64,000 nucleotides of DNA from positions 1-64,000 of IMG/VR virus record IMGVR_UViG_3300004097_003605; one strand, written 5' to 3'. Source of the DNA: a virus. The position numbers were made by a program, and so were the translations under genes. The notes beneath the pieces were generated by a model. The model was not told the origin of the DNA. It made no database searches and saw only the letters and a list, made by a program, of their open reading frames with translations. Numbering within the stretch: position 1 is the first letter of the stretch; each line of letters starts with the position of its first letter. This document shows, piece by piece, positions 46,801 to 64,000 of this stretch.

Positions 46801-49800
46801 CGCCTGCAGGGCCCCAATGTCAATTCCCATTTCGAAAGTTGTCGAGCAGGAAAGTGCATTTACTTGTCCGCATTGGAACGCTTCTTGTGTTTCCTGACCG
46901 AATCCAGACGACAACTGAGCCGTATGCTCTTCGCAACGAAGCTCTGTCGAAGCCATCCGTACAATTCGGCTGGTAAAAATATTTTCGCCAGGGGCGTCAC
47001 TTGGAAGTTTATCAACACTTTTCAACTTGCCGTTGCATCTCGGAGTGCTGCATATGTGCTCGATATTAACTGACTCGAAGCGGCCGCATTTGTCACATTT
47101 CCAGATGACGCGTGGTCTGGCTACCATCAGCGCGGAGTCTTGAATTACTAGAGCATTCTCACCTCCAATTTCCTCACGACGAAACAACGATTCGAGCGAT
47201 TCGCCGGACAAAAGATCGGTATATATTTGCCCAAGGAATTCTCGGACCGCGCTGTCTGGCAACGTATTCTGTGTACGTCTCAACCACCATCGTTTCACGA
47301 GTTCTTCAAACAGGGTTTCATTTGCGCCCGAATTGCGCAGTCCATGCAGAACGGCATCACCCTTTCTCTGTCGTTCTATCACCAAATAATGTTGCTTGTC
47401 ATGGAACCCTGGCTGTTCGATAGTGTCTGGCACACGAACTAAATGCCGTCGACGCATAAGGTTTATGATTCGTTCAACTAGATGTAGCAACTCATTCCAA
47501 GTCAATTTTCCCGGGAGGCCGCAGCTGTCAATTTGCTCATCACCTTGCGACAGAAATTGATCGCGAACCTCGTTTAGAATCGATACATGCATCAGGCCAA
47601 GGGACTCGATTGAGAGCCGATCGGAGCCCATCACTTCAGACATTAGGTGATAGATCACTCTATTCTTGCGCTCATTTTTTCCAGTGAGGTACGAACCCTT
47701 GAAGGGGCCGTCGGGCATGTCCGCCAATTCGCGACTCTCAAGAAAGGGAACCTTTAGCCCTCGCTCTCGAATAACATCCAAACAACGCTCCGCCCATTCG
47801 GAAATATGAATGGCCGAGTAGTCTTTCGGAAGAGCCTGGAAAGCCACTTCACGCATCATACTTTCGCTGATCTGGTCCTGAAAAAATGAGGCCATGAATG
47901 CGGCGTTCTGCCTGCTGTCACTGAAGACCAGCATTTTCCGTCCGCCGCCAACGAGTGGATCGTCACTAGCCGTTGTGCGGTGCGGAAACGATTTGCGAAG
48001 TTCCGATTGTTGCGTGGAAGAAAGGGCAGGAAGCTGAGTGTAGAGTGCCTGTGAGAGAATGCTTACAGGCACGTCTTGTCCCGTTTGAAGACGTTCGGCA
48101 ATTCGTTGATGCCTGCTAATTCCACAGTTCGGGCAGGATCGGACATCGGTTCGATCTTCATTCGTGGGGACTATATACATCGTTCTCCATATCGGAGTAC
48201 GGTTGCTTGACTGCCCCTCCAACGCACCAGTTACTAAATCAAATCGAACTGGCTCCAATGAGTCTCCTTCAAGGTTTGCATCCTCGAAAGCCAAAAAGTT
48301 GACCGGACGAGTCCACTCCGGAGGTTGATCCAGGCTTTCCCCTCTCTGCGACACATTGTTGCAGATAAATGGGAATTGACAGCTTCTGCACCTCGCAACT
48401 TCGAACGCTTCACGATCAACCGCCTTTTGACGACGAATGTCGATCGCAGTGATGCCGAGATCTGGAACACAGTCTTTGACAGACCTGCTTTCGATTTCTT
48501 CATCAGACGCGAGAACAACAAAAAGTCCTTCAAGAGCACCGGCGAACATATGATATCGGCACGGTAGAAGCGGCTGATCGCCGGGCGCGGGACGAGCGGA
48601 ATTGCAAAGTGAAACAAGTCGTTCCAGATGGTTGGAATAATCGGTATCGGATGACTGGCCTTTGTTCCAGCGATCAGCCAGCTCCTGAAATGCCTTGGGC
48701 TCGTCCTTAATTTGATTCCAGAGCCAGCGGAATCGTGGATGTCCCTTCATCAGGTGAAACAGAAATGCCCTTCGATCATTCCCCGCGGTCTTCTTTGCAT
48801 TTATCCAGGTGTCTTTCGGCGCTAAATGCTTGAATGTGTCGACGAACTTTTCGTGATTACATCCATCTATGTCGACCAGCTGATCCGCCGGAATTTCCCC
48901 AAATGCATCATCCGCGATACCCTGAAGCTTCGTCGACGCGAATTCCCAACCGAATGTAACGTCAGTTGGTGCAAGTCGTTTCGCAAGGATGACAGATGAC
49001 TCGTCAAATGGCAGCCCGAATAAATCGCCTGCAAAGGTAGACGTCGCGTTTCGCTTGTCCTTGTCAGACATTCTGGGGCCGGTAAGTGTTGCACTCGTCG
49101 CAATGCACACAGGTTCGCGATACTCCGTACCGACGGCCTTTTTTCCACGGTGAATTGCAGCTCGGAGCCGCTGCATCAGACGTGCCAACTCGATCCCCTG
49201 AGCACCACGATAGCTATGGGCTTCGTCGAGAATTAGAAATCGCCATGCCGCCTCATCCACAATCTCGAAAAACGGCGACTCGTATGGACGAAGAAGCGAT
49301 TGCTCAAGCATCGCAAAGTTCGTGATCAGAATGTCCGGCGGATCCTCAACGATTTCTTCTCGGCTTAGTAACTGGTTGTCAGGCGCATTCGGCTCCTTGC
49401 GAAGTCCCTTTTCGCGTCCACCTTTCACCGTCTCACTTGTGTATCGCGCGAATGTAATCGGGATTGCGTTTTCGCCGTTACTATCGTTGTATCCAATGAG
49501 CTGAACGAGTCGACGAATCTGGTCGTTTACCAATGCATTCATTGGATAGACAATCAGAGCCCGAATTCCCTTACCGCATTGGCTTCCGTCTGGAGAACGA
49601 GTCGGCCACCTTAGAATCCAGTCGATGGCCGGTAACAGAAAGCATTCAGTTTTTCCGCTACCAGTTCCGCTTGCAACTACAGTATTCGCCCCACCATTTG
49701 TACAAAGTCTGGTGATCGCTGACTCCTGATGTTCGTACAGCTTCCGGCTTCCTGGAATCCTTTCGCGTGCAACAACAGCTTTCGCTGTTCGAGACTTCCG

Positions 49801-50109
49801 TCCGATTGACAGACCTCTACTAGTTCCAGATTCCCTGGACGGTTCGGGCTGGTTCTCGCGAAATAGCTCGGAAAATCTTTCGTGAAGAGTTCCATCAGAA
49901 ACAAGCGTGTCTAGTGTCGAATTTCCAAGCGTAAATGGGGCCGTCGCTTCGAGAAACGGGCCATTGATGAGCCGACCTGGTGATCTAAGAATTCGACGGA
50001 ATTCATCATTTAGCTCGCGAGTACCTGCATCACCACTCAGCCCGAACGATGTAGCAAGGTAGGCCAAGTATTCGTTGCGAAGATTGTTGGCCACGTCGAT
50101 AGGGTTCAT
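43864..50109 (-). CDS. druE: DruE-like DEAH helicase with DUF1998 and MIT_C/PLD-like C-terminus (Druantia type III-like)
   Basis: This is a 2081-residue SF2 helicase. Motif I GTGSGKT is at 148-154, DEAH at 295-298, IATSATLTG near 350, and the second RecA domain has FEMGIDIGALQAVVLRN and QRAGRAGRR near 1110. Several CxxC zinc knuckles lie between 660 and 1450. The DUF1998 cysteines (CECDPDSVGCYGCLCDYQ) are near 1710. A last domain around VLIVDPHIMSGPHQ resembles MIT C-terminal PLD-like folds. Druantia systems are defined by a DUF1998 helicase of about this size. The ATG at 50109 lies ten bases after the druH stop; a GTG at 50160 would overlap it. Confidence 0.83.
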   Translation of the reverse strand: MNPIDVANNLRNEYLAYLATSFGLSGDAGTRELNDEFRRILRSPGRLINGPFLEATAPFTLGNSTLDTLVSDGTLHERFSELFRENQPEPSRESGTSRGLSIGRKSRTAKAVVARERIPGSRKLYEHQESAITRLCTNGGANTVVASGTGSGKTECFLLPAIDWILRWPTRSPDGSQCGKGIRALIVYPMNALVNDQIRRLVQLIGYNDSNGENAIPITFARYTSETVKGGREKGLRKEPNAPDNQLLSREEIVEDPPDILITNFAMLEQSLLRPYESPFFEIVDEAAWRFLILDEAHSYRGAQGIELARLMQRLRAAIHRGKKAVGTEYREPVCIATSATLTGPRMSDKDKRNATSTFAGDLFGLPFDESSVILAKRLAPTDVTFGWEFASTKLQGIADDAFGEIPADQLVDIDGCNHEKFVDTFKHLAPKDTWINAKKTAGNDRRAFLFHLMKGHPRFRWLWNQIKDEPKAFQELADRWNKGQSSDTDYSNHLERLVSLCNSARPAPGDQPLLPCRYHMFAGALEGLFVVLASDEEIESRSVKDCVPDLGITAIDIRRQKAVDREAFEVARCRSCQFPFICNNVSQRGESLDQPPEWTRPVNFLAFEDANLEGDSLEPVRFDLVTGALEGQSSNRTPIWRTMYIVPTNEDRTDVRSCPNCGISRHQRIAERLQTGQDVPVSILSQALYTQLPALSSTQQSELRKSFPHRTTASDDPLVGGGRKMLVFSDSRQNAAFMASFFQDQISESMMREVAFQALPKDYSAIHISEWAERCLDVIRERGLKVPFLESRELADMPDGPFKGSYLTGKNERKNRVIYHLMSEVMGSDRLSIESLGLMHVSILNEVRDQFLSQGDEQIDSCGLPGKLTWNELLHLVERIINLMRRRHLVRVPDTIEQPGFHDKQHYLVIERQRKGDAVLHGLRNSGANETLFEELVKRWWLRRTQNTLPDSAVREFLGQIYTDLLSGESLESLFRREEIGGENALVIQDSALMVARPRVIWKCDKCGRFESVNIEHICSTPRCNGKLKSVDKLPSDAPGENIFTSRIVRMASTELRCEEHTAQLSSGFGQETQEAFQCGQVNALSCSTTFEMGIDIGALQAVVLRNVPPSTVNYVQRAGRAGRRADSVAFVLTFCQRRPHDRVHFDDPVRIINGEVTPPVLDLNNRKILQRHCFAEVLSEYWEWLNVQKIDGELNAFERAGTVGHFFDSQIASTGQSPVDNLRNWLDEANNSDICLKRIIESFPDITRVDALDFMSLFANSDPASGNPLAIATQTTTSLLRSFRLEIDRHREEAKNFEGQARTSRDSNRKIESERNKDADRERSIVRSFEKLLKQTRGEFLISYLMGHGVLPSFAFPINVVKLHLTHQEFSAKPNERGALRLERDGKIALAEYAPGAEIVAGKRVHRSIGLRKFPALEFDGTNWFRWCNQCNSLETWRDAHSPDGIDPECKVCGNPFDPSRSAPMQWIDPKWGFVTDASEKGKEPRRRRPRRSHATRSFFLQHLGTDATQTVDQMNTIPTADDPVRVDAEYLTGRSLLVLNLGSFVRASDSNQFRNGFVICSTCGRSHFDQARNRPNKHRAPYHTRGTSCCGPIGVGPETTGEGVALGHEYETDVVTLQFHGSEHSLSETGFWLSLAYALTNGACQSLGIERSDLAATTYPSTGKQVIVLYDTVPGGAGHCQRILRDLDAVLRAARDLLASCECDPDSVGCYGCLCDYQNQFSHEQLSRGEPLQYLNRLIDAADTGRESPWRTPSKSAEREIVASLRGARGRVVFTVSELVPRRIAGLHKDWFDVIKEVAMSPVGPAGVILRISSVDAGADAVDRNIARNRLSELNELGVTVESPGNAQPDVSSIVIDGEGKQPLVVWKWPASEKLGSGLQSASCSRIGRELDAYSDVKSDLSWSVATLPESRHFHAFTLQGGTGHNPMATDYLGQILLHRVSRVLIVDPHIMSGPHQVFAVELFLRALRGSDNSNVHIQTARLQRIGKGNFGSDDEQQAEVSRLRRDLKHLNLEIALEHAFFEEHDRPLYVETIDGATKQHYKVLLGHGLYGFTSNCRKQSHGVWFEIDLNEFEDAWR

Positions 50110-50119
50110 TGCGTTCTCG

Positions 50120-53100
50120 CTATTTATAGATGAATGACCCGTCTGGTAGGCCGGCTCCACCTCGGTAGAAGATTTGTACGAGAAGCTCGGCGAGAATTAG
50201 ACACTTGCGAGCTTTCGTGGGGGCCTGCTCCATGACTTTGCCAAGCTGACGGTTTAGAATTTTGATGATTGGTGCGTCAAAGTCGTCGATCCCAAACACA
50301 GGCTCAGGACCCTCTGATGCCACAATTCGGTCCATCCAGCTGATCAGCCAGATATCTCGAATTGACTCGGAAATTCGTAAAGATTCCTGTTTGATCGCAG
50401 ATCCCCAAAGCATTTGAGTGCTTGCCCCAGCCGGACGACTTACCTCTTCGTACCACTCGCCCGCAATTGGTGACATAGTTTCGGCACTGCAGAAGCTGAG
50501 GTCGATATCAGCACCCGTAAGCGATTCTTGTGGACTGACTTCGTCCCACTCATTCAACGTCTTGCGAAGATCGATCAGTTCGCTGACGCTATCTGATGCC
50601 GGCGGACTGATTCGCAACGCCCCGTCGAACCTGCATGTAGCCAGCCCGTTGATAAGATCTCTTTCGTCGAAAATTGTCCATACGTGATTCTTATCAGACC
50701 ACCGTAACGAACAGGCCTGTTTGCGGCGGGAAGCGCTTCCGTAGCAGTTCGCATTAATGATCATGTCGCCGTTGGCGTTGCTATCATTGTCAATATTCAG
50801 GAGTTGAAGCTGATGTCGGTGGCGACCATTTCTACAGATGAACTCAGTGGTTGAACCGAGGTTGAGCGGATGCAACTGCTTAAGAGGCGGCAACCCCAAA
50901 GCGGCGTGATGAGCTTCAATGCGGCTACTTGCTTCTCGTTTGTTGTAGTACTTGGCCTTTTCGCTGGATGCTCTACTGACAAGCCACAAATCCCGGATGT
51001 AGTCAATGGGGAATGTCAATTCTGGCGATGATGCCCCAATCGGAGGTATCCAATTGGCGACCGTTACATTGAAGTCCGCAAAATGCCGACCATCCATAAG
51101 CAATTCGACACATTCTGCATCGCATTCCTTCTTCGTCGCGAGTTTGTTGAAGAAGGAAAGCGGGTCGAGTAACTGATGACCGCGCCTTGCTGATTGCAGC
51201 CGATTAGCGAAATTGACAAGCTCCTCATCAGCATGTGATTGCTCGCCAATCCATGCCCTGATTCTCTGCTCAAATGCAATCAGGTCATCGCTTCCCACTG
51301 GCTCTGAAAAGTTGGGATTAAACTCCGACAAGTCGCGAGCCAGCTTCCTACGAAAATCGGGCAATCCATCGCTAAGTTGAGCCAGTAGATAGGCTGAATT
51401 TGCCGCCCCGATGAGCGAAGCGGAAGTGAATGAGGACTGCTCATTATGGAAACGCCAGCACGGTGTCCTCATGCTTTTGCTGTCGACGGCAATGCGCAGG
51501 GCGGGCTTCTTTAGCGACAACCCGCGAGGCGGCAGAGTGGTGACAGCGATGGCAGTCCGACTGCCTGCAGGTAGTTCATCCAGCGTCCCAATCCATGAGA
51601 TGTTTCGGTTTGAATCATCACAGCTCGCCAAAACGGTCGGACGGCTGGCCGGGTCCAGAGGATCCCATGCAACAAGAGAACAATGTTCGTTTTCAAGCTC
51701 AAGCTCAGCCGTAATTTGAAACGTGTTGTGATCGGCTTCGACATCGAGATTGACGACAATTGGTCGATCAACCTTGATGAGGGCAACGAATTCCTTGCCA
51801 CAACTTTCAAACCGGATCTCATTGACTGAGTCAAGTTTCCGTACAACGCGCAGACCGGACTCAGTCTTCTGTCCGTCAAAAGTAAGGTCTCGACCAAGAA
51901 TACGAATGTCACTGTCGAACGGTACTTCGATTTCAAGTAATGCCCCTGCCGCATCCCGCTTGTCGATCAGGATTACCTCGTCTGTCCAGATCGCGTCAGA
52001 GTCCTTCGCGGAGACGACTCGCCAGCGAATGCCTTGTACGGGCCAGCTGAATGAGATGGCAGGCACCCTGTCATCATCCCATTTCCATAACGCAGACAAG
52101 GCGGGCTGGACCGTTGAATCTTTGACGGCCCAAAGGCCGTCGATGTTGGAGACGTGTTGGCCTTCCAGGACTCCACCCTGTGGCGCGAGAACTTCAACGG
52201 CAGCACTCTTCCCGTTGTCGGTGTAATGTGGCCCATCGAAGCTAAAGCCTGGAATTACTGCAAGGCGGGATACCAAGCGGCCTATCCCTTTGGCATTTCG
52301 AAGTTGAAACACCCCTGGGCCTTCGTTTGGATCAATCGGGAACAACAAACTCTGGCTTGAATCTATACGAATTCGTGAGGGATCGCCGAGCTCATAGGCG
52401 GAGTACTCGCGTGTCAGCAATAACGTGACCGGTTGTCGGCTGTCAGAGTTAACAAGCGGCGGCTCGTCATAGACGTCAACTAGTTGTCCATCTGACGTTT
52501 CTGCAGTAACTACAGGCTTCGGCAGTTCAACATGCGCGCCAGGACGGTAAGCCAGCTCAATTGACTCCTCTTCACCGTCGATCATCCATTTAAGAGTAGA
52601 CTCGCTATGTGACCTAACAGGTACTTGAACTTCCCAGGCCGTCCAGGTTTTGTGTTTTGAAAACCAACGCCATTTCGTTTGCAGCTGACGAATCAGACCG
52701 GGACAACACTCAGTGTCGGGAGTGCCTTCAATCAGTACGTACCAACGACCGGCTCCAAGTCCGCGGGAGTCCAGAATCGCGGCATCCTCAAGATTTCCGT
52801 TGTGCCCGTGAAACCAGATCCAGTGAGAATCGTTGTGGCGAGCAAGAAAGGACCTGTTCAAATCCGGGTCGCGACGAGACACCACCGCAACGTCCTCTAT
52901 GATTGGTCCCTGCACATACGCGGTCGATTCAGACTTGCCCTTGATCCAGAACGGTTTTTCGATTCCTGATAGGCGCCAGGCGGTTGTATCGGTTGACGGC
53001 ACCGACAGTACAACGTGACCGGTTTCCGGACGAAACTTGATTTCAGGAAAACTGCGATGACGAGATCGAGAACGCAGCCCGACCGAAAGGTCGGCCAGTG

Positions 53101-53848
53101 CAGATCGAACAAGGGACAAGTCGATACTCGGTGGAAGCAGTTCCAGCTCTAGATCTGCGTTTCCCCGTTGAACCCAGCCAACAACAACTCGACTGAAGCA
53201 CGCCCATAGTTCAGCTGCTCCCAGCGATTCGCCCTCTAGGAACCTGCGGGTCTTGGCCGGGATGCCGCGAAATCCTGTCACATGGCGTTCGATGAGTTGA
53301 CGCCGCATGTCCACTGGAAGGTTTGGCAATGAATGGCCATGAACGTCAAAACCTTTCGCAAGTACTCCAATGAGAGGATTAATTGCGACGTTTGGGAGAC
53401 CGCAGTGGTAGACGATTGGGCCAATGTTGCTCTGACGAGTCCGTGGTATTGTGTAGTCGAATGCATCAAGAGCATGTCGCGCCCAAGACCCGAGCAAGCG
53501 TTGCTTCTGCGGGCCGCCTGGCACGCTCTTGGGGCACCGGCTGTTTGGCGCGTAGCGGGCCGTTCGAATGTGCTCAAAAAGGAATGGCCAGAATTCGCTC
53601 CACCCGTCTGTCGCATAGTCCTTTTGCGCAACGCTCAAAAACGCGTGCAGCGCTTTAGCTAAATCAAGATCTGTTGCCTTTGACTCATCCTTATCACGGT
53701 TGACAACTTCGAAAAGCAGTCGGAGACAATCATCAAGGATGAGAGGGTCATCTGGCAGGCCGGCAAGCCCAGCGATGTCAAATTCATTCTCACGAAAAGC
53801 CTGTGCAAGTTTCTCGGTGATCTTTGAGTGATTCGAAGTCACAGACAT
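50120..53848 (-). CDS. druH: DruH-like large protein (Druantia type III partner)
   Basis: This 1242-residue protein is encoded directly before the DUF1998 helicase and is co-transcribed with it. No catalytic motif stands out. The N-terminal 250 residues are helical (FRENEFDIAGLAGLPDD, RHVTGFRGIPAKTRRFLEG), the middle is made of beta-rich repeats with many Trp residues, and the C-terminus is mixed. In Druantia type III the two genes are druH and druE, and the size and order agree. The start is well set by AGGAGG eight bases before the ATG. Homology to druH is inferred from context and length, not from recognised motifs. Confidence 0.72.
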   Translation of the reverse strand: MSVTSNHSKITEKLAQAFRENEFDIAGLAGLPDDPLILDDCLRLLFEVVNRDKDESKATDLDLAKALHAFLSVAQKDYATDGWSEFWPFLFEHIRTARYAPNSRCPKSVPGGPQKQRLLGSWARHALDAFDYTIPRTRQSNIGPIVYHCGLPNVAINPLIGVLAKGFDVHGHSLPNLPVDMRRQLIERHVTGFRGIPAKTRRFLEGESLGAAELWACFSRVVVGWVQRGNADLELELLPPSIDLSLVRSALADLSVGLRSRSRHRSFPEIKFRPETGHVVLSVPSTDTTAWRLSGIEKPFWIKGKSESTAYVQGPIIEDVAVVSRRDPDLNRSFLARHNDSHWIWFHGHNGNLEDAAILDSRGLGAGRWYVLIEGTPDTECCPGLIRQLQTKWRWFSKHKTWTAWEVQVPVRSHSESTLKWMIDGEEESIELAYRPGAHVELPKPVVTAETSDGQLVDVYDEPPLVNSDSRQPVTLLLTREYSAYELGDPSRIRIDSSQSLLFPIDPNEGPGVFQLRNAKGIGRLVSRLAVIPGFSFDGPHYTDNGKSAAVEVLAPQGGVLEGQHVSNIDGLWAVKDSTVQPALSALWKWDDDRVPAISFSWPVQGIRWRVVSAKDSDAIWTDEVILIDKRDAAGALLEIEVPFDSDIRILGRDLTFDGQKTESGLRVVRKLDSVNEIRFESCGKEFVALIKVDRPIVVNLDVEADHNTFQITAELELENEHCSLVAWDPLDPASRPTVLASCDDSNRNISWIGTLDELPAGSRTAIAVTTLPPRGLSLKKPALRIAVDSKSMRTPCWRFHNEQSSFTSASLIGAANSAYLLAQLSDGLPDFRRKLARDLSEFNPNFSEPVGSDDLIAFEQRIRAWIGEQSHADEELVNFANRLQSARRGHQLLDPLSFFNKLATKKECDAECVELLMDGRHFADFNVTVANWIPPIGASSPELTFPIDYIRDLWLVSRASSEKAKYYNKREASSRIEAHHAALGLPPLKQLHPLNLGSTTEFICRNGRHRHQLQLLNIDNDSNANGDMIINANCYGSASRRKQACSLRWSDKNHVWTIFDERDLINGLATCRFDGALRISPPASDSVSELIDLRKTLNEWDEVSPQESLTGADIDLSFCSAETMSPIAGEWYEEVSRPAGASTQMLWGSAIKQESLRISESIRDIWLISWMDRIVASEGPEPVFGIDDFDAPIIKILNRQLGKVMEQAPTKARKCLILAELLVQIFYRGGAGLPDGSFIYK

Positions 53849-54159
53849 CTCTCGTGCCTCCTGCCGATAGGTATTCCTCAGACGAAACAAACACGGTGTC
53901 TGTTTACGTCATGCCCCAGCCATATTGCATCAAAGATGTTCGATGCCAAGATATACACTTCGGATCAGTTTTGCTATGAAGCTGACAGATAAGGAAGAGA
54001 TCAACTGTATGCAAAACCTGCCTGCGTAAGCCGCGGAAAGACTGCCGCCAAAACCGGATTAGACTTAGCCTGCCAACCACCTGTGCTCGGTACAGCAATG
54101 CCCGATGGGCAAGGTGAGACTGAGTTGCTTGGCGCCCCGCAATCGGGGCTGGCGTAGAT
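53849..54159. other. Gap upstream of the druH-like gene
   Basis: 311 bases that should hold the promoter of the druH-druE-like operon. A hairpin (GCGCCCC / GGGGCTGGC region, about 54131-54152) lies close to the end of the gene at 54160. No gene or clear promoter boxes were found. Confidence 0.45.
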
Positions 54160-54519
54160 TCATGTTGATTCCCTGAGCGGGAATTGGATTCCGTGGATTA
54201 CGGTCGTGCTGACGGGGCCACATGCAAAACCATGCTCAGTGAAGGCAAACAGCACGGCGTTTTCCGGCATCGCGTTTAGGAATTCGTCTTCGCATGGCGA
54301 AGGTTCGTACCCGTCTTCGTCCGACAGTAGCTTCAGGGTTTTCTTTGTCTCGATGCTGCTGTTTTCGTACTCGCCAACCACGTCAATCCAAGAGAACAGT
54401 AAGTGATCGCAAGGCTTGGACGTGCCCTCGCCGTTTACGCTGTAGACTTCCTTTCCGCAGACTGGGCAGCAGAACTGCGGTCCCGACCAGATGTTCTCGA
54501 TTTCGATGAGCTGAGCCAT
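54160..54519 (-). CDS. Unknown 119-residue protein downstream of the sigma54-type gene
   Basis: CCPVCGKEVYSV and CDHLLFSWIDVVGEY suggest a small zinc-binding fold in the first 50 residues, followed by an acidic part (SDEDGYEPSPCEDEFLNAMPENAV). Proteins with this pattern occur as small partners of larger defence genes, but I cannot name the family. Its start is 56 bases from the stop of the PD-(D/E)XK-type gene, so the two are probably one transcript. Confidence 0.72.
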   Translation of the reverse strand: MAQLIEIENIWSGPQFCCPVCGKEVYSVNGEGTSKPCDHLLFSWIDVVGEYENSSIETKKTLKLLSDEDGYEPSPCEDEFLNAMPENAVLFAFTEHGFACGPVSTTVIHGIQFPLREST

Positions 54520-54575
54520 GTTCGTGTCTCCTTTGGGGGTTCTGAAAAATGTGGGTTACTGTGCTACTGTCCGAA

Positions 54576-56213
54576 TCATTCAGAGGCTGACGCGTTTGCC
54601 AGGTGCTGCTGCAATCGCTCGATCTGAGTATCTAGTCCGGATTTCAGTCGCTCGGCTTTCTTCACGATCTTCTCGCTGCTGCTTCTGACCGTCGTAGCAA
54701 ATTTAATGATGTCTCCCAGCGATTCAGCGTCTCGCAGGATGGTATTCACTGCCTGGTCCATCTCCGCAAAGTCGGCGGCAGAGCTGTCTTTCGCACGGCG
54801 GTCTGCGACGACCATGGCGCGAGCGAGTGAGATCGCAGCCTTGAGAAATACGTCATGCTCTGGACTCTCTGCGTCCCAGACGACGATGATGTCATCTCCC
54901 CATCGATTGATGACCTCAAGCCCCTCTGGAGCAGCATCCGGCGTGAAAACCATGACGCCTACTGTGGCTTCCCGGTTTTCTCTTGCTGTTTGAAGCTCCT
55001 TCAGCGCCTTGGAAACTCCGTAGCTCTTGTTGCCCTTTGCTTCGAAGACAATACGTCCGCCCGGAGCCGCTGACTCCGGCCCCAGCTCCTGGACATGGTC
55101 TCCCACTTTGCAGCGGGAGATCGTTCCGGCGGAGTCTGTGGTATCGACAAAGATGTCGTTCAGCCGACGGGATTCGATTTGCAGAAATTCGCCCAGCGAA
55201 TCCTCGAACTCGAGCCCATGGCGTGTGGACCGTCCTGCTTCTTCCCGCTTTGCATTGAGTGCCTCAAGTGAGGCACGCACATCCGACTGAAAATTCGTAT
55301 TCGACTCAGCCATCGCGTCGATGGTTTTTCGCAGCTCATTTCTCAGTCGCGACAGGGGTGAGTCCTCACGGTCGAGACTGAGACTGTCACGAATTGATGA
55401 ATGCATTTGCTCCAGCAGATTCGACATCCGGTTGATTGCTGAGTTCTCGTTGTCGCGTGAGAACTCTTTCATGATGGTGTCGTTTGCCGCTTCGACGCGT
55501 GTAACAAGTCGCGAGAGAGCGCCGTCTTCGTTGTCGAGCGAGAACTCTTGCCGAACGGCATCGACGTCTTCAGCAAGTTCCTTGCGAAGCCGTCCGTTCT
55601 CGCCAGTCAGTTCTTCAACGAGCCGCGAAAGCGCCGACTCTTTGTCGTCCAGTGAGAACTGACCTAGGATCACCTTTCGGTGTCCCTTCAGCGAGGTCTC
55701 GACTGTCTCTCCAAGCAGAGCAAGGACACCATTGCTCTGCTCCGGAGACAGCATCTTCAAGAGGGGACTGTCTGAGCCGATGTGCTGTTTCAATGTTCCA
55801 GCAAGTGTTGAACCGTCATCACCGACGTGTCGAGCCAGCAATTGTTCCAGTTCGCCGTCACGAGAAACGAGCCGGTTGATACGCTGCGGCAGCTCGCCGT
55901 CAGTGGCGTCGAAGTACTTCTGGAGTGAGTTCGACACGCCGCGAAGTGTCGTGTCCGCGTGCTCGGTCAGAGCAGACTTGACCGAGTTCATCAGCCGCTC
56001 GCCTTCGAGACGTACAGAGTCAGCGTCAACCGTGCCAGTCGCCTGTCGCAGGGCGAGAACTCCAAGCCGGAGCGACGACAGTGCAAACAGGTCACGGGCC
56101 TCACCCTCGGGGTGCTTCATCAACTCGCAAATAATGTCAGGGTCGGCCACCGTCAGGTGCAGCTGAATCGTTCGGGCGGATTGACCATTGAGGGGGTTCT
56201 GCGTGTCGATCAT
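54576..56213 (-). CDS. Coiled-coil protein with four tandem repeats and a PD-(D/E)XK nuclease-like C-terminus
   Basis: A 545-residue protein. The N-terminal 60 residues are globular. Residues about 180-305 carry four repeats with the core F/LSxDxxxSxLxRL, at about 186, 224, 251 and 279, in a long coiled coil. The C-terminus (330-470) looks like a PD-(D/E)XK nuclease: LEFEDSLGEFL, VGDHV, then VFEAKGN (Glu391, Lys393) and TVGVMVFTPDAAPEGL. It might cut DNA or RNA after activation. The ATG at 56213 has a GGAG site upstream; a sigma54-type promoter lies 51-67 bases upstream and the divergent gene encodes an RtcR-like activator. Confidence 0.78.
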   Translation of the reverse strand: MIDTQNPLNGQSARTIQLHLTVADPDIICELMKHPEGEARDLFALSSLRLGVLALRQATGTVDADSVRLEGERLMNSVKSALTEHADTTLRGVSNSLQKYFDATDGELPQRINRLVSRDGELEQLLARHVGDDGSTLAGTLKQHIGSDSPLLKMLSPEQSNGVLALLGETVETSLKGHRKVILGQFSLDDKESALSRLVEELTGENGRLRKELAEDVDAVRQEFSLDNEDGALSRLVTRVEAANDTIMKEFSRDNENSAINRMSNLLEQMHSSIRDSLSLDREDSPLSRLRNELRKTIDAMAESNTNFQSDVRASLEALNAKREEAGRSTRHGLEFEDSLGEFLQIESRRLNDIFVDTTDSAGTISRCKVGDHVQELGPESAAPGGRIVFEAKGNKSYGVSKALKELQTARENREATVGVMVFTPDAAPEGLEVINRWGDDIIVVWDAESPEHDVFLKAAISLARAMVVADRRAKDSSAADFAEMDQAVNTILRDAESLGDIIKFATTVRSSSEKIVKKAERLKSGLDTQIERLQQHLANASASE

Positions 56214-56263
56214 CTGAGTGCTCCAGCTGAAATGGGGTGTTAAGGGCGACGAAACCTCTCTAA

Positions 56264-56280
56264 AGCAGACGATGTGCCAA
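56264..56280 (-). promoter_or_regulatory. Sigma54 (-24/-12) promoter facing the coiled-coil nuclease gene
   Basis: On the minus strand: TTGGCAC, five bases, CTGCT. The GG (-24) and GC (-12) are exactly ten bases apart, and only one conserved T is changed relative to TGGCAC-N5-TTGC. It is 51-67 bases before the start codon. Palindromes GCAATTGC (56309-56316) and GAGT-N3-ACTC (56329-56339) upstream may bind the activator. Confidence 0.72.
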
Positions 56281-56428
56281 TGCGGAATCTTCGATGTACG
56301 GTTGAGTTGCAATTGCTGTCTGTAATTGGAGTTGTACTCTTTTTAAAAGGATTCTTTCCTGGTCAGTACTCACTCTTCTCTGTCTGGGGTACAGTTAGGT
56401 TTGTGATTTGAACAAATGGAGATATGCA

Positions 56429-58027
56429 ATGAAAAGCAAGCGAATTCTGGTCGCATGGATCGGGCACAATGACTTGCTCGGCCTTGCTGCCGACTTGCCG
56501 GCAGGGCAGCAGGCTGCCCTGCTGAAGCGGATCAGTCGCTCTCTTCCTGCCGGGAAACAGAACGGCCCCATTCGGACGCTGGTGCAACAAGAGCTTTTTG
56601 ACGAAGTACACCTACTGAGCAACGGCCATCCTGCAGCCACGACGAAGGCATTCGTCAAATGGCTGGGAGTGGAGGCGGCTGTCCACGAAGTCACCGTTGA
56701 AAATCCGACGGACTATTCAGCGATCTTTGCTGCGGCGGAGACGACGCTGGCTGAGATCACCCGCGGCAAAGGATCGAAAGAACTCTGCATCCACCTCAGC
56801 CCTGGCACGCCGGCCATGACGGCGATCTGGGTGCTGCTCGGCAAGAGTCGCTACCCGGCGACATTTTATCAGTCGTACGACGGCCGTGCTTGGGAGACGA
56901 CGATCCCCTTCGATCTTGTCGTTGATTTCGTGCCGGAACTTCTGATGCGACCGGACCAGAGTCTCCAGCACCTTGCCGCGCAGAGCCCTCAAGAAGTTGA
57001 AGGATTTGAGTCCATCGTTGGAGGGAGCCAGGCCATCCGTCTTGCAGTTGGAAGGGCTCAAAAGGCTGCAATTCGTGACGTCCCTGTCTTGATTCTTGGA
57101 GAGACGGGTACCGGCAAGGAGATGTTTGCGCGGGCGATTCATGCAGCGAGCCACCGTAATGATGGTCCATTCATCGCAATTAATTGCGCTGCGATGCCGA
57201 AAGACCTGCTGGAGTCGGAATTGTTCGGCCACGCCAAGGGAGCATTCACTGGTGCCGATAAGCCCAGGGCTGGTGCATTCGAAACGGCTGACGGCGGGAC
57301 ACTGTTTCTGGATGAGCTTGGTGAGTGCGGGCCAGAGATGCAGGCAAAACTGTTACGTGCGCTCCAGCCGCCGCCCGGCAAAGGGCCATGTCACCGCGTG
57401 TTTCAGCGGCTCGGGGAAACGCGTGAAAGAACGAGCAATGTGCGAGTCGTTGCTGCAACGAACCGCGACCTGCTGGCTGACATTCGCGCCAACCGGTTTC
57501 GTGAGGATCTTTACTACCGTCTCGCTGTGATTTCGCTGCGGCTGCCACCTCTTCGTGAGCGTCGATCCGACGTCCCCCTTTTGACGCAGAGTCTTCTCGA
57601 TCAGATCAATCGCGAGTTTGCGGAAACCGAACCGGGCTATCAGCCACGACAACTCTCAAAAACCGCGCTGTCCTACGTGAAGCGACACCCGTGGAACGGC
57701 AATGTCCGGCAATTGCACAGTGTCCTGGTCCAGGCTGCCGTGATGTGCGACGGCACTGAAATCAAACCACGCGACCTGGCCGCATCAGCATCCGAACAGG
57801 AAAGTTCGGAATTCTCGCAGCTGTTGAATGTCTCGCTTGGCGGAGACTTTTCGAGTGAGAAATACCTTGAGAACATCCAGCGCCAGTTGCTGATCCGGGC
57901 AATGGATGACGCAGACGGAGTGCTGGTAAAAGCCGCTGCTCTGCTTGGGATCACAAACTATCAGACGCTCGACGCACAACTGACGCGACTGGGAATAGAC
58001 AAGTCACAATGGAAACAGCGTCGCTGA
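56429..58027 (+). CDS. RtcR-like activator: CARF sensor, sigma54 AAA+ ATPase, HTH
   Basis: This is a 532-residue regulator. Residues about 1-165 form a CARF-type sensor with the LSPGTPAMTAIWVLL motif (near 110-125) and strand RYPATFYQS, as in E. coli RtcR, which is controlled by RNA-end or cyclic nucleotide ligands. Residues about 200-430: sigma54-interacting AAA+ with Walker A GETGTGKE (224-231), the GAFTGA loop (271-276) that touches sigma54, and the DELGECGPEMQ Walker B. Residues 490-530 are a Fis-type HTH. It is divergent from the PD-(D/E)XK-type gene, whose sigma54 promoter it should activate. ATG chosen over a TTG upstream. Confidence 0.9.
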   Translation: MKSKRILVAWIGHNDLLGLAADLPAGQQAALLKRISRSLPAGKQNGPIRTLVQQELFDEVHLLSNGHPAATTKAFVKWLGVEAAVHEVTVENPTDYSAIFAAAETTLAEITRGKGSKELCIHLSPGTPAMTAIWVLLGKSRYPATFYQSYDGRAWETTIPFDLVVDFVPELLMRPDQSLQHLAAQSPQEVEGFESIVGGSQAIRLAVGRAQKAAIRDVPVLILGETGTGKEMFARAIHAASHRNDGPFIAINCAAMPKDLLESELFGHAKGAFTGADKPRAGAFETADGGTLFLDELGECGPEMQAKLLRALQPPPGKGPCHRVFQRLGETRERTSNVRVVAATNRDLLADIRANRFREDLYYRLAVISLRLPPLRERRSDVPLLTQSLLDQINREFAETEPGYQPRQLSKTALSYVKRHPWNGNVRQLHSVLVQAAVMCDGTEIKPRDLAASASEQESSEFSQLLNVSLGGDFSSEKYLENIQRQLLIRAMDDADGVLVKAAALLGITNYQTLDAQLTRLGIDKSQWKQRR

Positions 58028-58164: not shown

Positions 58165-59898
58165 GTGGCATCGATTGGTGACAGGCTTGATGGCAAATAT
58201 TTGGTAACAAAGCGGCTTGGCGCCGGTGGGTTTGGAGAAGTCTTTCTTGCAGATGACGCGGCCATTCCTGGGCGGCATGTCGCCATTAAGGTGCTTCACC
58301 GCGCGGACGACGAAGATGACCAGAGCGATCTGGTCTGGGAGATGCAGCAACTCGCAAAGGTCAGCCATCCTCACGTCGTGAGCTTTCACCATCATTTTTT
58401 TGAGGATGGCCACCTTCACCTTGTGATGGAGTATTGCTCGAAAGGCAGTCTTGACGAGCATCTGGCAAAAGCAGGGTCGTTCCCGGAGCGGCAAGTCTTC
58501 GAGTGGGCGTTACAGCTGTGCGGTGCACTTTCCCATGTTCATGGCAGAGGAATCGTGCACCACGACATCAAGCCGCAGAACGTTCTGTTTGCGGCTGATG
58601 GAACCATCAAGCTTAGCGATTTCGGCGTGGCGAATACGCACGCGGGAACGTTGGCATTTCTACCACCGGAAGCCTTCCTTCACGAGCCGGTTTCTCAAAT
58701 GGATCCGCGCATCGACGTCTACGCATTTGGCCTCACGCTGATCCAGATGCTTACCGGCGAGCACCCGTTCTTTGGAGTTTCGAGAGAAGACGCGGTCGAG
58801 GCTCGAATCAGACACGACTTCGTTCCCGCCAGTCTTTCTCAGTGGACGCAGGATGTTCTGCTCAAGGCAACGCACCCCACTCCCGAATTGCGATTTCAGT
58901 CGATCGCAGATCTTGCGCAGGCCATTCGCGCACAGCACGTCCCGTTCATCATCGATTTGAAGCGGATCCAGGCAGATAAACTTGCAGGCAAGGCCGAAGC
59001 TCAAATGCGCAGAGGTCGCTGGCGAAAGGCGGAGGAGCATATCAGATACGCTCTCGACTATAGCCCAGACTGTGTCTCTGCCTTGATGGCCGCGGGACGC
59101 TGCAAGCTACTGGTACGCCAGACTGACAGTGCTTTCGAATACTTCCGCAAGGCGATGCGAGTCAGTCCTCGCACGCCTGTGCAGAAAGAACTCGCTGAAA
59201 TCAGCCTGCAGCGAGGCAGGATTCCCAGAGCCATCTCGCTGTTGACGGATCATCTCCAGCGAAACGCGTCAGACTTTGAAGCATACAACCTGTTGCTGAA
59301 GTGCTACTACCTGACTGATCGGCTTGAGGCGGGCATCGAACTGGCCGAGTCGCTTAAGGATGAATCGCCCAGCGTCTGCTTATCAAACAACCTGTTTGTA
59401 CTGCGTATTCTGGATGGTGCAGTGACCAGCGACGAACTGGATGAACTTGAACGGGCTGACCGCAGTAATCCGTTCTTCGCTTACAACCTGGAAGTGTTCT
59501 GCGGAGCACTCCGGCTCAGCGATCAGTCGCAGCCGCCACTGAAGTCCAAGTTGCTCTTTCAGGAATACCGGTTCGGGCTCGATGAGCCGAGAGGCAAATC
59601 GAATATTGTGTCCGTCTATCTGCCAGACGGACACCGAGAAGATTTCTCTCAACCCATTATTACCATCGGCTGGCTGGATTCGAATGACGTGACACTCGAT
59701 TCCAGGGGAGTCAGTCGCCGTCACTGCGTCGTCGTCAACCGCTCGGATGATGTCTGGCTCTATGACCTCGAAAGTACGGTCGGCACTCTCGTCGATGGAG
59801 AGCAAATCTCAGGAAGCCAGCATCTTCCGGGTGTGCATAACATCGAGCTGGGGGAAGTCAGCCTCCGCATCGCGGCAAGCCATGATCTGCTTGTCTAA
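58165..59898 (+). CDS. Ser/Thr protein kinase with TPR-like repeats and C-terminal FHA domain
   Basis: This is a 577-residue protein. The kinase (residues about 12-265) is intact: glycine loop GAGGFGEV, Lys42 in VAIKV, catalytic HDIKPQN (133-139) and DFG (152-154). Residues about 280-440 hold TPR-like helices (AEAQMRRGRWRKAEEHIRYALDYSP, then FEYFRKAMRVSP). The FHA domain (about 490-575) has TIGWLDSNDVTL, SRRHCVVV and STVGTLV, which bind phosphothreonine. No membrane segment is present. GTG start, 137 bases after the CARF-sigma54 activator, so the two may work together; no sigma54 promoter was found before this gene. Confidence 0.9.
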   Translation: MASIGDRLDGKYLVTKRLGAGGFGEVFLADDAAIPGRHVAIKVLHRADDEDDQSDLVWEMQQLAKVSHPHVVSFHHHFFEDGHLHLVMEYCSKGSLDEHLAKAGSFPERQVFEWALQLCGALSHVHGRGIVHHDIKPQNVLFAADGTIKLSDFGVANTHAGTLAFLPPEAFLHEPVSQMDPRIDVYAFGLTLIQMLTGEHPFFGVSREDAVEARIRHDFVPASLSQWTQDVLLKATHPTPELRFQSIADLAQAIRAQHVPFIIDLKRIQADKLAGKAEAQMRRGRWRKAEEHIRYALDYSPDCVSALMAAGRCKLLVRQTDSAFEYFRKAMRVSPRTPVQKELAEISLQRGRIPRAISLLTDHLQRNASDFEAYNLLLKCYYLTDRLEAGIELAESLKDESPSVCLSNNLFVLRILDGAVTSDELDELERADRSNPFFAYNLEVFCGALRLSDQSQPPLKSKLLFQEYRFGLDEPRGKSNIVSVYLPDGHREDFSQPIITIGWLDSNDVTLDSRGVSRRHCVVVNRSDDVWLYDLESTVGTLVDGEQISGSQHLPGVHNIELGEVSLRIAASHDLLV

Positions 59899-59915: not shown

Positions 59916-62900
59916 TCAGTCTGATTCGAAGTCCTGAGTCGAGAATTTCAATGTGCGGCAATTCTCCATGACAGTCCGCACGACGTTATCGGGAACGCCC
60001 TCTGGAATCTCGATCTGGATTTCCATCGTCACGTTGGCACTGGCACCGGGAAGTCCAGTCAGATGACTGAGTACTTCCTCGGCCACACGCCCGGCATCAC
60101 GACCCAGTCGACTGGCATCGAGGGGGATCGCACCGAAGAAGCGGCGAGGTTTCGTGTCGACTTCTTCCGCATCCTGAGACTCACCATCTTCGGTCGGTTC
60201 CGAACCTCCGGGCGTCGTACCGCCAGAGGGCTTTCCGGAGCCTCCGCCTGGCCACGGTGCGGTTTCATCGGTCCCGATCTGCGCTGAAGCGATGTCGGGC
60301 TTGACCAGAACAGTACTTCCGTCGGCGATGATGTTGGCATTCGTTGAATAGCGCAGACCTCGGTAGCGGTTTCGATCAGGGTCGAAGGCATCAGCGACGG
60401 CGAAGGTGTCTTCGCTCCATGTCAGCGAACTCACGCCGTCGATCATCGACTGGATGATCGCCCGCTGGTTCTTGAATCGAGGCAGGTACAGATACTGGGC
60501 CATGTCCTCGCAGAGCTGTTTGACTCCAACGTGGTTGCCTCGCCACAGCGGGACGCGGTCAAGGTCCATGCGCAGACGCACGCCGGCGTACTCGGTAACG
60601 AACAACTCCTCGCTGACGAGTTTCTTTGAGGCTCGTACAGGAAGTCGATCGGCGCCGGTGGCTTTGAATGTCTGCCACTGGACGGGCTGAGTCGGCTCCG
60701 GTTGAGTCGGGACCAGTAGCCACTGATAGGTTTCCGGAATTCGTGCCTGCACGGTTCCGTCGGATTCCTCAAACTTGGTCTTGGCCTGATTCGTCTGGAA
60801 TGGGTCGAGGTTGAGTGACGTGCGGTCGTTGTAAATCGACTTCCACGCCAGGTACTTGCGAACAGCGTCTTCGAGGTCTGTAAGCCTCGTCCGATCGGCG
60901 GCCGCAAACACCAGAGTATTGCGGTTGATACGAGGGCTGCTGCCGCGCTGTTCAAGAATGGCCTGAGCAGCCTGCAGGGCGAGACTGTCTTCGTTCTTGT
61001 TCACGTGGGGCGATTCCGGTTTCAGAATCACGAGGCGTCCTTCGGTTTCGTCTGGGACGTCGGCTCCGGAGTCCGGGCAGGCGTGAACCCTCTCGAAGTC
61101 GCCGGCGTGCTTCTGCTCGGCTGCCAGGCGATTGCGGATCTCTTCCAGCACATCGTCATCAGTCTGTTCCGCGGCCCGGTCCTGAGCGACTCGCGTGACG
61201 CTGGGCTGAGTCGAATACCAGTAGCGGCTGCCATCGACATACAGGTGTGTCGCCTGATCGGTGAGCCGCCGGAGGGCATCGCCAAAGACGGCCACGCCTT
61301 CTCCTGGTTGAACGCAGCCCAGCTTGATGCGGCGATCGTCGACGCCTTTGCGCGCCGTGTCCGCGATGGGGGCCGAGCCGACATAGATCGTACGTGCCAC
61401 GCGGCGGCAAGCAGACAGACGGCCGAGGTTGGGGTTGTCGCGGTCGATGCGTCGTGACAGCGAATCGTTGCCATCCACGTCGGTTTCGATGACCGTGGTC
61501 CATGCGGGCGACAGGCCGGACTTGGTGGTGATCTCGCTGAGGATTGCGGAATCGTCCATCGGAATCATGGCCGGCATGATCATCAGAGATTTGTCATCGC
61601 CTTCCCACAGCGAGTAGATCACTGTGGCCATCAGACGCAGCACGCCACGAGTTCTCTGGAATTCTTCCAGCGAGGCCCAGTCGGTATAGAGTCGTTCGAA
61701 CAGCTCTGGGTGAACCGGATAGGCCAGCTCGACTTTGCGGCGGTAGTCGCCGTCGCGGCAGCCGGACGGGAATTCGGCTTCCTGCTTCTTGTAGAGCTGC
61801 ATGTAGGCATCGATCACCGCGTCCCGCGAGGCGAGGTTGTCTGGTTCGATCGATTCAAACAATCGCCGTCGAACGATCTCGTAGCTCTCTTCCTGACTGG
61901 CGGGCCGCCAGCTCGATTTCACGCGGGTGAACGTGTTCTCCAGAATGTCGAGTGCCTTCTGGCCGCCCTCGCCACCGACCTCAATCCGCGACTGAGGCAG
62001 CGACGCCACGACCAGCACGTTTGGAGACTTGGCGGCCTCTGTCAGCGACTGAGCGAAGGTGAGGTTGGAGTCGAAACTGCCGCCGGGCAGGTCAGGCGTC
62101 TCGTATGTCTGACGGATGTAGGCGACCCATTCGTCGATCAGGATCAGCGTTGGTCCGGCTTTGGCGAACAGCTCGCTGAGGATGTCTGAGCCCGGACTCG
62201 TGCCGTTTTTGTCCGAGTCCGCGACGATGGCGTACCCTTTCTTGCCGAGCAGTTGCCAGGCCATTTCACCCCACAGCGTATGAACGACAGTTCCGTCCGG
62301 TTTCTTGTGAGCCTGACCGGCCGAGAGCGCCGTGCCCACCAATACGGCACGTTTGGCTTTCGGCAGCTCGGTGGCTTCGGTTTCACTCAGCAGAACATCG
62401 ATGCCCGGCAGATCGGCCGCGCTGGTTCCAGACACCAGGTGATACAGCGCCAGCATCGAGTGTGTTTTTCCGCCACCGAAGTTGGTCTGCAGTTCGATGA
62501 CTGGGTCACTGCCGTTTCCGGTCAGACGATTAATCGCCCCCAGCAGCAGTCCACGTAAGCCGTCGGTGATGAACGTGCGGCGAAAGAACTCTTTGGGATT
62601 GCCGTACTCGTCGGTGGCGTCGCCGCGGATGACTTGCGCGAGGTCGGCGGCGAACTCGGCCTGAGCGAACCGGCCGCTGGCGACATCGGGGTGAGGCGTC
62701 ACGACGTCGCGCCAGGGACGCAGTCCGCCGGTGGGTGTCCCGGCAAGGGCTTCCTTCTGAGCCCGTCGCGTTTCCTGACGAGCCAGTTCGCGGGAGCGTG
62801 TGTGTTGAGTGTCCGCCTTCAGGCGATCCACCTGCGCGGCTTCGTCGCCGGCCGAGATGGATGACAGCAGGCGGTGGATCGTATCCAGAGCCCGCCAGGT

Positions 62901-63230
62901 GTCGTCCGTGCTGAAGGCTTCCTGGTGAGCCCATCGGTTTCGGATTTCGGACAGCTCGTGCAGCATGCCGCGTTCGGCTTTGCCCAGCTTGTTGCGGAAC
63001 AGGTACTGCCATTCGCTGTTGATGACGTTGACGATCAGCGGTGCGTCCCAGGGGATCTGAGCCCGACTGGCCTTCTCGGCAGTGGATTTGTTGCTCCGCA
63101 GGACCTCGCGGATCTTCTCCTGCCACTCATCTTTGTGACGGGCTTTCATTTCCCGTTCGACGAAGGGCTGCATGCCTTCGACGAACAGGTCCAGCGCGGT
63201 GCCTACGCGGTCTTTGTTGCTCTTTGCCAT
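59916..63230 (-). CDS. DUF499 ATPase with N-terminal Swt1-type HEPN domain
   Basis: This is a 1104-residue protein. Residues about 1-130 resemble Swt1-family HEPN domains (LHELSEIRNRWAHQEAF with the Arg-x-x-x-His pattern). The DUF499 ATPase has Walker A NFGGGKTHSM (near 250-258), TLILIDEWVAY (Walker B, near 365) and LPQSRIEVGGEGG. The C-terminus has a winged segment and a Gly/Pro/Glu-rich linker. DUF499 proteins pair with DUF1156 methylases and relate to BrxC/PglY of BREX systems. The DUF1156-type gene lies directly upstream (22-base gap), and this gene converges with the kinase gene. Confidence 0.85.
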   Translation of the reverse strand: MAKSNKDRVGTALDLFVEGMQPFVEREMKARHKDEWQEKIREVLRSNKSTAEKASRAQIPWDAPLIVNVINSEWQYLFRNKLGKAERGMLHELSEIRNRWAHQEAFSTDDTWRALDTIHRLLSSISAGDEAAQVDRLKADTQHTRSRELARQETRRAQKEALAGTPTGGLRPWRDVVTPHPDVASGRFAQAEFAADLAQVIRGDATDEYGNPKEFFRRTFITDGLRGLLLGAINRLTGNGSDPVIELQTNFGGGKTHSMLALYHLVSGTSAADLPGIDVLLSETEATELPKAKRAVLVGTALSAGQAHKKPDGTVVHTLWGEMAWQLLGKKGYAIVADSDKNGTSPGSDILSELFAKAGPTLILIDEWVAYIRQTYETPDLPGGSFDSNLTFAQSLTEAAKSPNVLVVASLPQSRIEVGGEGGQKALDILENTFTRVKSSWRPASQEESYEIVRRRLFESIEPDNLASRDAVIDAYMQLYKKQEAEFPSGCRDGDYRRKVELAYPVHPELFERLYTDWASLEEFQRTRGVLRLMATVIYSLWEGDDKSLMIMPAMIPMDDSAILSEITTKSGLSPAWTTVIETDVDGNDSLSRRIDRDNPNLGRLSACRRVARTIYVGSAPIADTARKGVDDRRIKLGCVQPGEGVAVFGDALRRLTDQATHLYVDGSRYWYSTQPSVTRVAQDRAAEQTDDDVLEEIRNRLAAEQKHAGDFERVHACPDSGADVPDETEGRLVILKPESPHVNKNEDSLALQAAQAILEQRGSSPRINRNTLVFAAADRTRLTDLEDAVRKYLAWKSIYNDRTSLNLDPFQTNQAKTKFEESDGTVQARIPETYQWLLVPTQPEPTQPVQWQTFKATGADRLPVRASKKLVSEELFVTEYAGVRLRMDLDRVPLWRGNHVGVKQLCEDMAQYLYLPRFKNQRAIIQSMIDGVSSLTWSEDTFAVADAFDPDRNRYRGLRYSTNANIIADGSTVLVKPDIASAQIGTDETAPWPGGGSGKPSGGTTPGGSEPTEDGESQDAEEVDTKPRRFFGAIPLDASRLGRDAGRVAEEVLSHLTGLPGASANVTMEIQIEIPEGVPDNVVRTVMENCRTLKFSTQDFESD

Positions 63231-63252
63231 GACGGGTCAATCCCTGATATGT

Positions 63253-64000
63253 CTATTCGAAGAGTTCTGTTTGAGTCTCTGCCTTTGGTGCTTCGCGGGC
63301 GAGTCGGGTGATTTCCGGCCAGCTCACGACCAGGCCGTTGTAGCTGCGGGCCTGGTCGGCCAGTTTTTTCTTTTCGCAGGTCTGGTACAGGCGGTAGGCC
63401 AGTTCGCGGGCGATTTCGCCGTTGGCGCTGCCGACGCGGGCCAGTAAGGCTCCGGCACCGGATTCGCCGTCGCTTTCCAGTTTGCGGATCAGATGCTGCG
63501 CGACTTCCCACATTGTCAGTCGCGAGTCCGTGGTCGGGTCCCAGCCGGCGTCCATTTCGTCGCGTTGTAGCAGGCTGACTTTGCCGGCTCCGGATTTGGC
63601 GATACCGGCTTCGACGACGCCGGAGACGCTGACGGCCATGGCCTTCGAAAGGGTTTCGGCATCGCCGAAGGGGCCTTCGGTCATGCCGTACTGCTCGAAC
63701 CAGCGGAGGGCGAACCGCGTTTCGGCGTCAAAATCGGATTCCTGCTCGACGAGCGACTCGTCCAGGACCTGATTGATCAGCTGCAGCGCCTCGCGGACGG
63801 ACATCGGTGAGCCGTCGGCGTTGACGACCTTGCTGTAGCGGCTGAACACGGCCATCCCCGGCCCGATCGAAGCCTGAGCCAGGTCCACCGGAGCCACGTT
63901 GCCCGATTGCAGGTGTTTGATCGCTTCGGGTAACTCTTTCCGCAAAGCGTTCGCAAAGTCTCGACGTGTTACCATCGAAGCGTCAGAAGGTCTCGAACGG
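63253..64000 (-). CDS. C-terminal part of a DUF1156-type DNA adenine methylase (cut by window edge)
   Basis: The frame is open to the right edge, so the catalytic N-terminal part is outside the window. The visible 249 codons begin at the edge with RSRPSDAS before an internal Met. VTRRDFANALRKELPEAIKHLQ, GNVAPVDLAQASIGPGMAVFSRYSKVV and SVREALQLINQVLDE are characteristic of the C-terminal part of DUF1156 (COG1743) methylases. Paired with the DUF499 ATPase it would form the modification part of a BREX-like or related defence system. The usual full length is around 900-1000 residues. Confidence 0.83.
   Translation of the reverse strand, partial: RSRPSDASMVTRRDFANALRKELPEAIKHLQSGNVAPVDLAQASIGPGMAVFSRYSKVVNADGSPMSVREALQLINQVLDESLVEQESDFDAETRFALRWFEQYGMTEGPFGDAETLSKAMAVSVSGVVEAGIAKSGAGKVSLLQRDEMDAGWDPTTDSRLTMWEVAQHLIRKLESDGESGAGALLARVGSANGEIARELAYRLYQTCEKKKLADQARSYNGLVVSWPEITRLAREAPKAETQTELFE

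Follow-up and report, generated by a model that had tools for sequence, protein, structure and literature searches.

A predicted PD-(D/E)XK nuclease with a repeat-bearing helical arm, putatively heading an inducible defence operon

What is the role of a 545-residue protein that carries four tandem repeats next to a nuclease-like domain, and what controls it? The gene lies in a window of 64,000 nucleotides, the whole stretch of DNA analysed here, which belongs to a 71.6-kb IMG/VR virus record. The record is laid out as phage genes (integrase, terminase, head protease, tape measure) and then a defence island from 43.8 kb. A first-pass annotation suggested that the repeats form an oligomeric ring or a sensor rod, holding the nuclease silent. 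On balance, we favour a different view: that the gene codes for a PD-(D/E)XK nuclease of Mrr_cat-like type, mounted on a jointed arm of helices, and stands at the head of an inducible operon for defence.

The gene and its product

The reading frame is uninterrupted on the minus strand from an ATG at 56213, while the plus strand across 54576-56213 contains many stops. The following parts can be distinguished.

54576..56213, minus strand: coding sequence of the repeat-armed PD-(D/E)XK nuclease, 545 aa (ORF translation; full-length homologues)
55911..56174, minus strand: N-terminal domain, residues 14-101 (conservation; predicted structure, pLDDT 85)
55620..55658, minus strand: repeat 1, FSLDDKESALSRL, residues 186-198 (this and the next three from motif search and homologue profile)
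55506..55544, minus strand: repeat 2, FSLDNEDGALSRL, residues 224-236
55425..55463, minus strand: repeat 3, FSRDNENSAINRM, residues 251-263
55344..55382, minus strand: repeat 4, LSLDREDSPLSRL, residues 278-290
54804..55223, minus strand: PD-(D/E)XK (Mrr_cat-like) nuclease domain, residues 331-470, with E337, D372, E391 and K393 (homologue alignment; predicted fold)
54582..54863, minus strand: C-terminal long helix, residues 451-544 (predicted model)

On its own, the protein gives no significant match in a Pfam scan, and a PDB sequence search returned only designed coils and chance coiled-coil matches. It has no transmembrane segment (Kyte-Doolittle maximum 1.03 over a 19-residue span). In the libraries scanned, none of the curated families spans its full length, and the literature searched gave no description of it. 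The family to which it belongs, with members in planctomycetes, Pseudomonadota and archaea, is apparently unnamed.

The nuclease domain

The active site is spread over three segments, GxxFE (337), GD (372) and RIVFEAK (391-393). Seven residues (G333, F336, G371, D372, E391, K393 and E406) are invariant in all 35 aligned homologues, and E337 is kept in 34 of them. Two Pfam scans matched Mrr_cat (PF04471) in 5/6 and 10/16 family members; matches to DUF2130 among the homologues are weak. In the predicted model, residues 333-423 form a core in the order helix, strand, strand, strand, helix, strand. The AF2 pLDDT is 81-91 over most of residues 341-470, and 75 and 71 in two blocks. The best structural matches found by VIA-align are McrC (Z 10.2, rmsd 3.0, 122 residues aligned), Can2 (9.6) and Can1 (9.2). 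Foldseek matches high in the ranking are mostly restriction-type nucleases, none of them with E < 0.001.

Because the catalytic residues are invariant, family members match Mrr_cat and the fold resembles those of McrC, Can1 and Can2, we assign residues 331-470 as a PD-(D/E)XK nuclease; that it is active is a prediction, well supported by inference from homologues and model. The ExK-type domain of the first-pass annotation is thereby well supported, as is the predicted fold of the C-terminal region, which it had named as a test.

The repeat arm and the N-terminal domain

The protein has exactly four copies of the strict motif [FL]S.D...[SG].[LI].R[LM], at spacings of 38, 27 and 27 residues. When the sequence was shuffled with its composition kept, one copy arose in 4 of 20,000 shuffles and more than one in none. 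The four regular repeats claimed earlier are thus real, but the last begins at residue 278 and not at 279. The repeat profile has no match at residues 100-160 of the window protein, and this region was rejected as a source of extra copies.

A profile of 54 repeat units has the consensus F-S-L-D-N-E-D-S-A-L-S-R-L. The window protein and six bacterial relatives have four copies each, about nine others have three, and the remainder have two or one; the 38/27 spacing is mostly kept across the bacterial relatives. In the haloarchaeal homologues, FGEDG blocks and one LDPDxxGTPxxRL take the place of this motif. Conservation of the repeats in homologues, a further test proposed at the outset, therefore holds among bacteria, with copy number falling from four to one, but not in haloarchaea, which have a different version. 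In close relatives the motif is about as conserved as the active site, and for this reason we consider that it matters. Some relatives with a single repeat still have the full nuclease motif; judged from these homologues, the repeat motif is not required for retention of the nuclease domain.

In the predicted model, each motif forms a helix-breaking loop (the conserved F-S-x-D) and the start of a helix, with a period of 27 residues. The helices between the motifs are about 20 residues long (232-251, 259-278) and are followed by one at 286-328. Confidence in the arm is modest (pLDDT about 65-72, and pTM 0.34 overall). At that level of confidence, the model suggests a jointed rod rather than a continuous heptad coiled coil; loop-plus-helix units replace the heptad-like blocks, and the coiled coil leading into the nuclease domain, of the first-pass annotation.

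The N-terminal domain is predicted to comprise an extended segment (15-23), a short helix (25-31) and a long helix (38-101). By eye it is like a ribbon-helix-helix, with no Pfam, PDB-sequence or Foldseek match. It bears an ALRxGxxAL motif and is conserved in archaea too.

The proposed operon

In the direction of transcription, the nuclease on the minus strand comes first; behind it are genes for a CPVC protein of 119 aa, a protein of 1242 aa and a DruE-like helicase. Their positions are as follows.

54160..54519, minus strand: 119-aa protein with a CPVC motif and the ribosome-binding site AAAGGAG, next gene downstream of the nuclease
50120..53848, minus strand: 1242-aa protein, family unassigned, with a strong ribosome-binding site, in the place of DruH
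43864..50160, minus strand: DruE-like (YprA/DUF1998) helicase, 2098 aa (DruE1 E 1.7e-185; DruE3 E 1.4e-167)

The nuclease and the Druantia-like genes are probably transcribed together. The stretch 53700-56700 gave no terminator-like site, but a gap of 310 nt between the 119-aa gene and the 1242-aa gene counts against a single transcript.

The 1242-aa protein has no match to DruH or any other PADLOC model at E<=1, and none in Pfam or NCBIfam. Lying beside a DruE-like helicase, it is possibly a new Druantia partner.

A candidate sigma-54 promoter and an RtcR-like activator

Two features upstream of the nuclease bear on its control.

56264..56279, minus strand: candidate sigma-54 (-24/-12) promoter, TGGCACATCGTCTGCT, a consensus match 51 nt before the nuclease ATG
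56408..58027, plus strand: RtcR-like CARF-AAA+-HTH sigma-54 activator, divergent from the nuclease (RtcR_PspF2 E 5.4e-161)

Sigma-54 sites were scored with crude weights that we set from the known consensus. The site in front of the nuclease has the invariant GG and GC at the correct spacing, with an imperfect score of 0.91. The window contains three such sites in 128,000 strand-bases, and shuffling the intergenic region gave a site as good in 3 of 2000 trials. On this sequence evidence, positions 56264-56279 are a candidate sigma-54 promoter of the nuclease gene.

The arrangement recurs in a planctomycete locus, L057, in which a perfect sigma-54 promoter, TGGCACGCCTGTTGCA, abuts the end of an RtcR-like gene and is followed by a nuclease homologue of 49% identity. 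The window and L057 promoters have TTTAGAG downstream in common. The homologue in L057 has Q at position 337 and is cut short just past the position of E406; behind the RtcR-nuclease pair lie HsdS-ATPase and SIR2-pAgo genes. At L057:1690-8301, a SIR2-pAgo-like protein adjoins an AAA ATPase and an HsdS-like/ATPase fusion. In another locus, L108, broken nuclease fragments are divergent from an RtcR-like gene, which is the layout of the window.

The family PDLC01995 was rejected as a census of RtcR, since most of its matches cover only the AAA/HTH part. We took as RtcR-like the loci whose PDLC01995 match starts at position 1-2 and thus includes the CARF part. Twelve such planctomycete loci have readable downstream sequence, and in nine of them a site scoring >=0.9 lies within 100 nt after the activator stop, against an expectation of 0.005 per locus. 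A tenth has a site of score 0.89 at 114 nt. Near-perfect promoters 0-100 nt past the stop of the RtcR-like activator are seen in L102-L105, L108-L110, L113 and L057.

What follows these RtcR-linked promoters is typically a defence system. Several are type I RM operons, as tested for L103 and L108 and by resemblance of the translations for L102, L110 and L113. In L109, Druantia III (DruH3-DruE3) comes directly behind the promoter, its partner protein matching DruH3 at 3e-65; the nuclease is absent from this locus. In these planctomycete loci, the RtcR-like activator and its promoter thus have the appearance of a portable defence switch. RtcR control of RtcR-headed superoperons was proposed earlier in a survey of CoCoNuT systems (Bell et al., 2024, PMC11090510), and the candidate promoters found here are direct sequence support for it.

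Homologues and distribution

Searches of viral and genome contigs with the single sequence gave no relatives, because these are too distant for the patterns used. Phage records contain no match to the nuclease, and viral contigs none with the family profile. A tblastn search of plasmid records found seven archaeal homologues (six haloarchaeal and one from a methanogen), the window protein alone reaching the archaeal copies at E 1e-10. An alignment of these seven with the window protein led to 17 loci in genome contigs. Six bacterial relatives are full length, at 35-50% identity: four planctomycete or uncultured, one deltaproteobacterial and one from Contendobacter. Comparison of profiles places the bacterial and archaeal sets in one family (E 3.7e-86, a value inflated by the presence of the window protein in both sets). 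The family occurs in 32 of 392 Planctomycetota genomes (about 8%), usually as one copy, and in 2/297 and 3/398 genomes of the phyla of L012 and L013, respectively.

Most bacterial homologues are solitary, beside unrelated genes (alpha-mannosidase, prfB-like, T6SS), and some of the planctomycete loci are in shared synteny. Strong sigma-54 promoters are present only at the homologues that neighbour RtcR, the next best score being 0.86, in L013; a sigma-54 promoter was accordingly rejected as a rule for the whole family. Linkage to Druantia was likewise rejected, since among the compared loci only the window adjoins the DruE and 1242-aa genes. Defence is not the universal setting of this family, because most bacterial homologues are solitary and have no strong sigma-54 promoter.

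In nine archaeal loci, a common family of UvrD-type helicase is found near the nuclease homologue. A UvrD-type helicase lies near the homologue in the haloarchaeal L007, L021, L022, L014, L016-L018 and L020 and the methanogen L004, and it often has a PD-(D/E)XK partner, an arrangement like AddAB. The homologue in L004 also adjoins type III RM genes.

Comparison with known systems

The window protein shares with Mrr_cat (PF04471), McrC and Can1/Can2 the E...GD...ExK site and the alpha-beta-beta-beta-alpha-beta core, with VIA Z scores of 9-10 over 117-124 residues. It differs from them in that its sequence falls below Pfam detection, and that it adds an N-terminal domain, a repeat arm and a C-terminal helix unmatched in those families. 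In contrast to enzymes of the Can1/Can2 type, it does not itself carry a CARF domain.

ShdA of the Shield system of Pseudomonas has an RmuC domain and an N-terminal membrane anchor (PMC10270631). Like the window protein, it combines a long helical region with a restriction-endonuclease-like DNase and is found near RtcR-like regulators (RtcR-headed superoperons, PMC11090510). However, Pfam scans found no RmuC match for the window protein or the scanned homologues, and this, with the lack of a membrane anchor, rules out its identification as ShdA.

As in the RtcR-CARF regulated CoCoNuT and type I RM superoperons (PMC11090510), an RtcR-like CARF-AAA-HTH activator here heads restriction operons, including Druantia III. 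Unlike those superoperons, the window locus is divergent, has a planctomycete setting and has no CoCoNuT genes that we could see; explicit sigma-54 promoters can be proposed, which in related loci are at the stop codon of the activator. The window operon resembles Druantia in that a protein of >1200 aa is followed by a DruE-like helicase (YprA/DUF1998, 2098 aa). It is not a standard Druantia III, as there is no DruH; the 1242-aa partner takes this position, and the nuclease and the 119-aa gene are added in front.

Proposed function

RtcR-like switch proteins turn on anti-phage gene clusters in related bacteria. The nuclease of the window has a sigma-54 promoter in front and a switch protein adjoining it, and is on these grounds probably a weapon released by the switch. 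The type III RM genes beside the homologue in L004 and the UvrD-type helicase family common to nine archaeal loci also speak for a part in defence. We hypothesise that an infection signal would bind the CARF domain of the RtcR-like activator, by analogy with RtcR, whose signal is RNA ends with 2',3'-cyclic phosphate. The activator would then remodel sigma-54 polymerase at the nuclease promoter, and the nuclease would be produced along with, or ahead of, the Druantia-like helicase. Its N-terminal and helical parts may bring the protein together as a dimer or small oligomer; the repeat arm would then space two nuclease domains for double-strand cleavage of invading DNA. The sequence shows the intact active-site motif, the activator, the promoter sequence and the order of the genes; we infer the ligand, the state of oligomerisation, what is cut, what the repeats do, co-transcription and cooperation with DruE. 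A bolder proposal, which we regard as speculative and rather unlikely, is that the F-S-L-D arm is a modular ruler or contact surface of variable length (for a helicase partner or DNA) in a new class of immune nuclease, released in planctomycetes by a nucleotide-sensing CARF/sigma-54 transcription switch.

The main rival is that the protein is a resident nuclease for DNA repair or DNA-end processing, in a role like that of RmuC/DUF2130, mostly inherited with the chromosome and captured by defence loci in a few cases. We rate this as possible rather than probable. A repair role has to be reckoned with because most of the bacterial relatives are solitary and have no promoter; the single copies in a small share of planctomycete genomes, in surroundings other than defence and partly in synteny, would fit it, as would the AddAB-like pairs near archaeal copies and the weak DUF2130 matches. 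Yet the distribution is patchy, the family matches are to the restriction type (Mrr_cat) and not to RmuC, and there are three separate cases of an RtcR neighbour, two of them with sigma-54 promoters in front.

The ring or sensor of the first-pass annotation, keeping the nuclease inactive until a trigger arrives, would account for the strong conservation of the repeats in close relatives and for their place between the N-terminal and nuclease domains. No sensor domain and no structural match for a ring were found, nor any sign of autoinhibition, and the single-repeat relatives keep the nuclease motif intact. Going by the promoter sequences, the visible gate on the nuclease is transcription, not inhibition by the rod, and we consider the ring or sensor improbable. 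It is more improbable still that the nuclease serves the mobile element or island as a guard or toxin, outside the Druantia-like system, with a promoter placed there by accident. This would suit L109, where DruH and DruE come straight after the promoter and the nuclease is missing; against it, the promoter and nuclease occur together again in L057.

If the nuclease does head an inducible operon for defence, its family is an addition to the likely defence repertoire, tied to an on-switch that can be tested: a CARF/sigma-54 activator with a promoter at its own stop codon or across a divergent gap. The published suggestion of RtcR-controlled restriction operons would then become a prediction at the level of sequence, with the promoter named.

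Other genes in the record

Beyond the activator, two further genes were annotated.

58165..59898, plus strand: Ser/Thr kinase-TPR-FHA protein, co-directional with the RtcR-like activator
59916..63230, minus strand: HmaC of a neighbouring, complete and separate HMA defence system

The kinase gene follows the activator directly, and the best matches of the kinase are the MADS mad6 and PD-T4-6 models. The HMA system (HmaA, a 310-aa gene, HmaB and HmaC) lies to the right of the nuclease locus, in window positions 59916-64000 and L115 (record positions 62500-71615). The 310-aa gene, inserted between HmaA and HmaB, is similar to the PADLOC RT_III-A model in the C-terminal part of that model. Among the phage genes, a 427-aa protein at window positions 30360-31643 resembles the C-terminal part of the RT-Protease_XI models.
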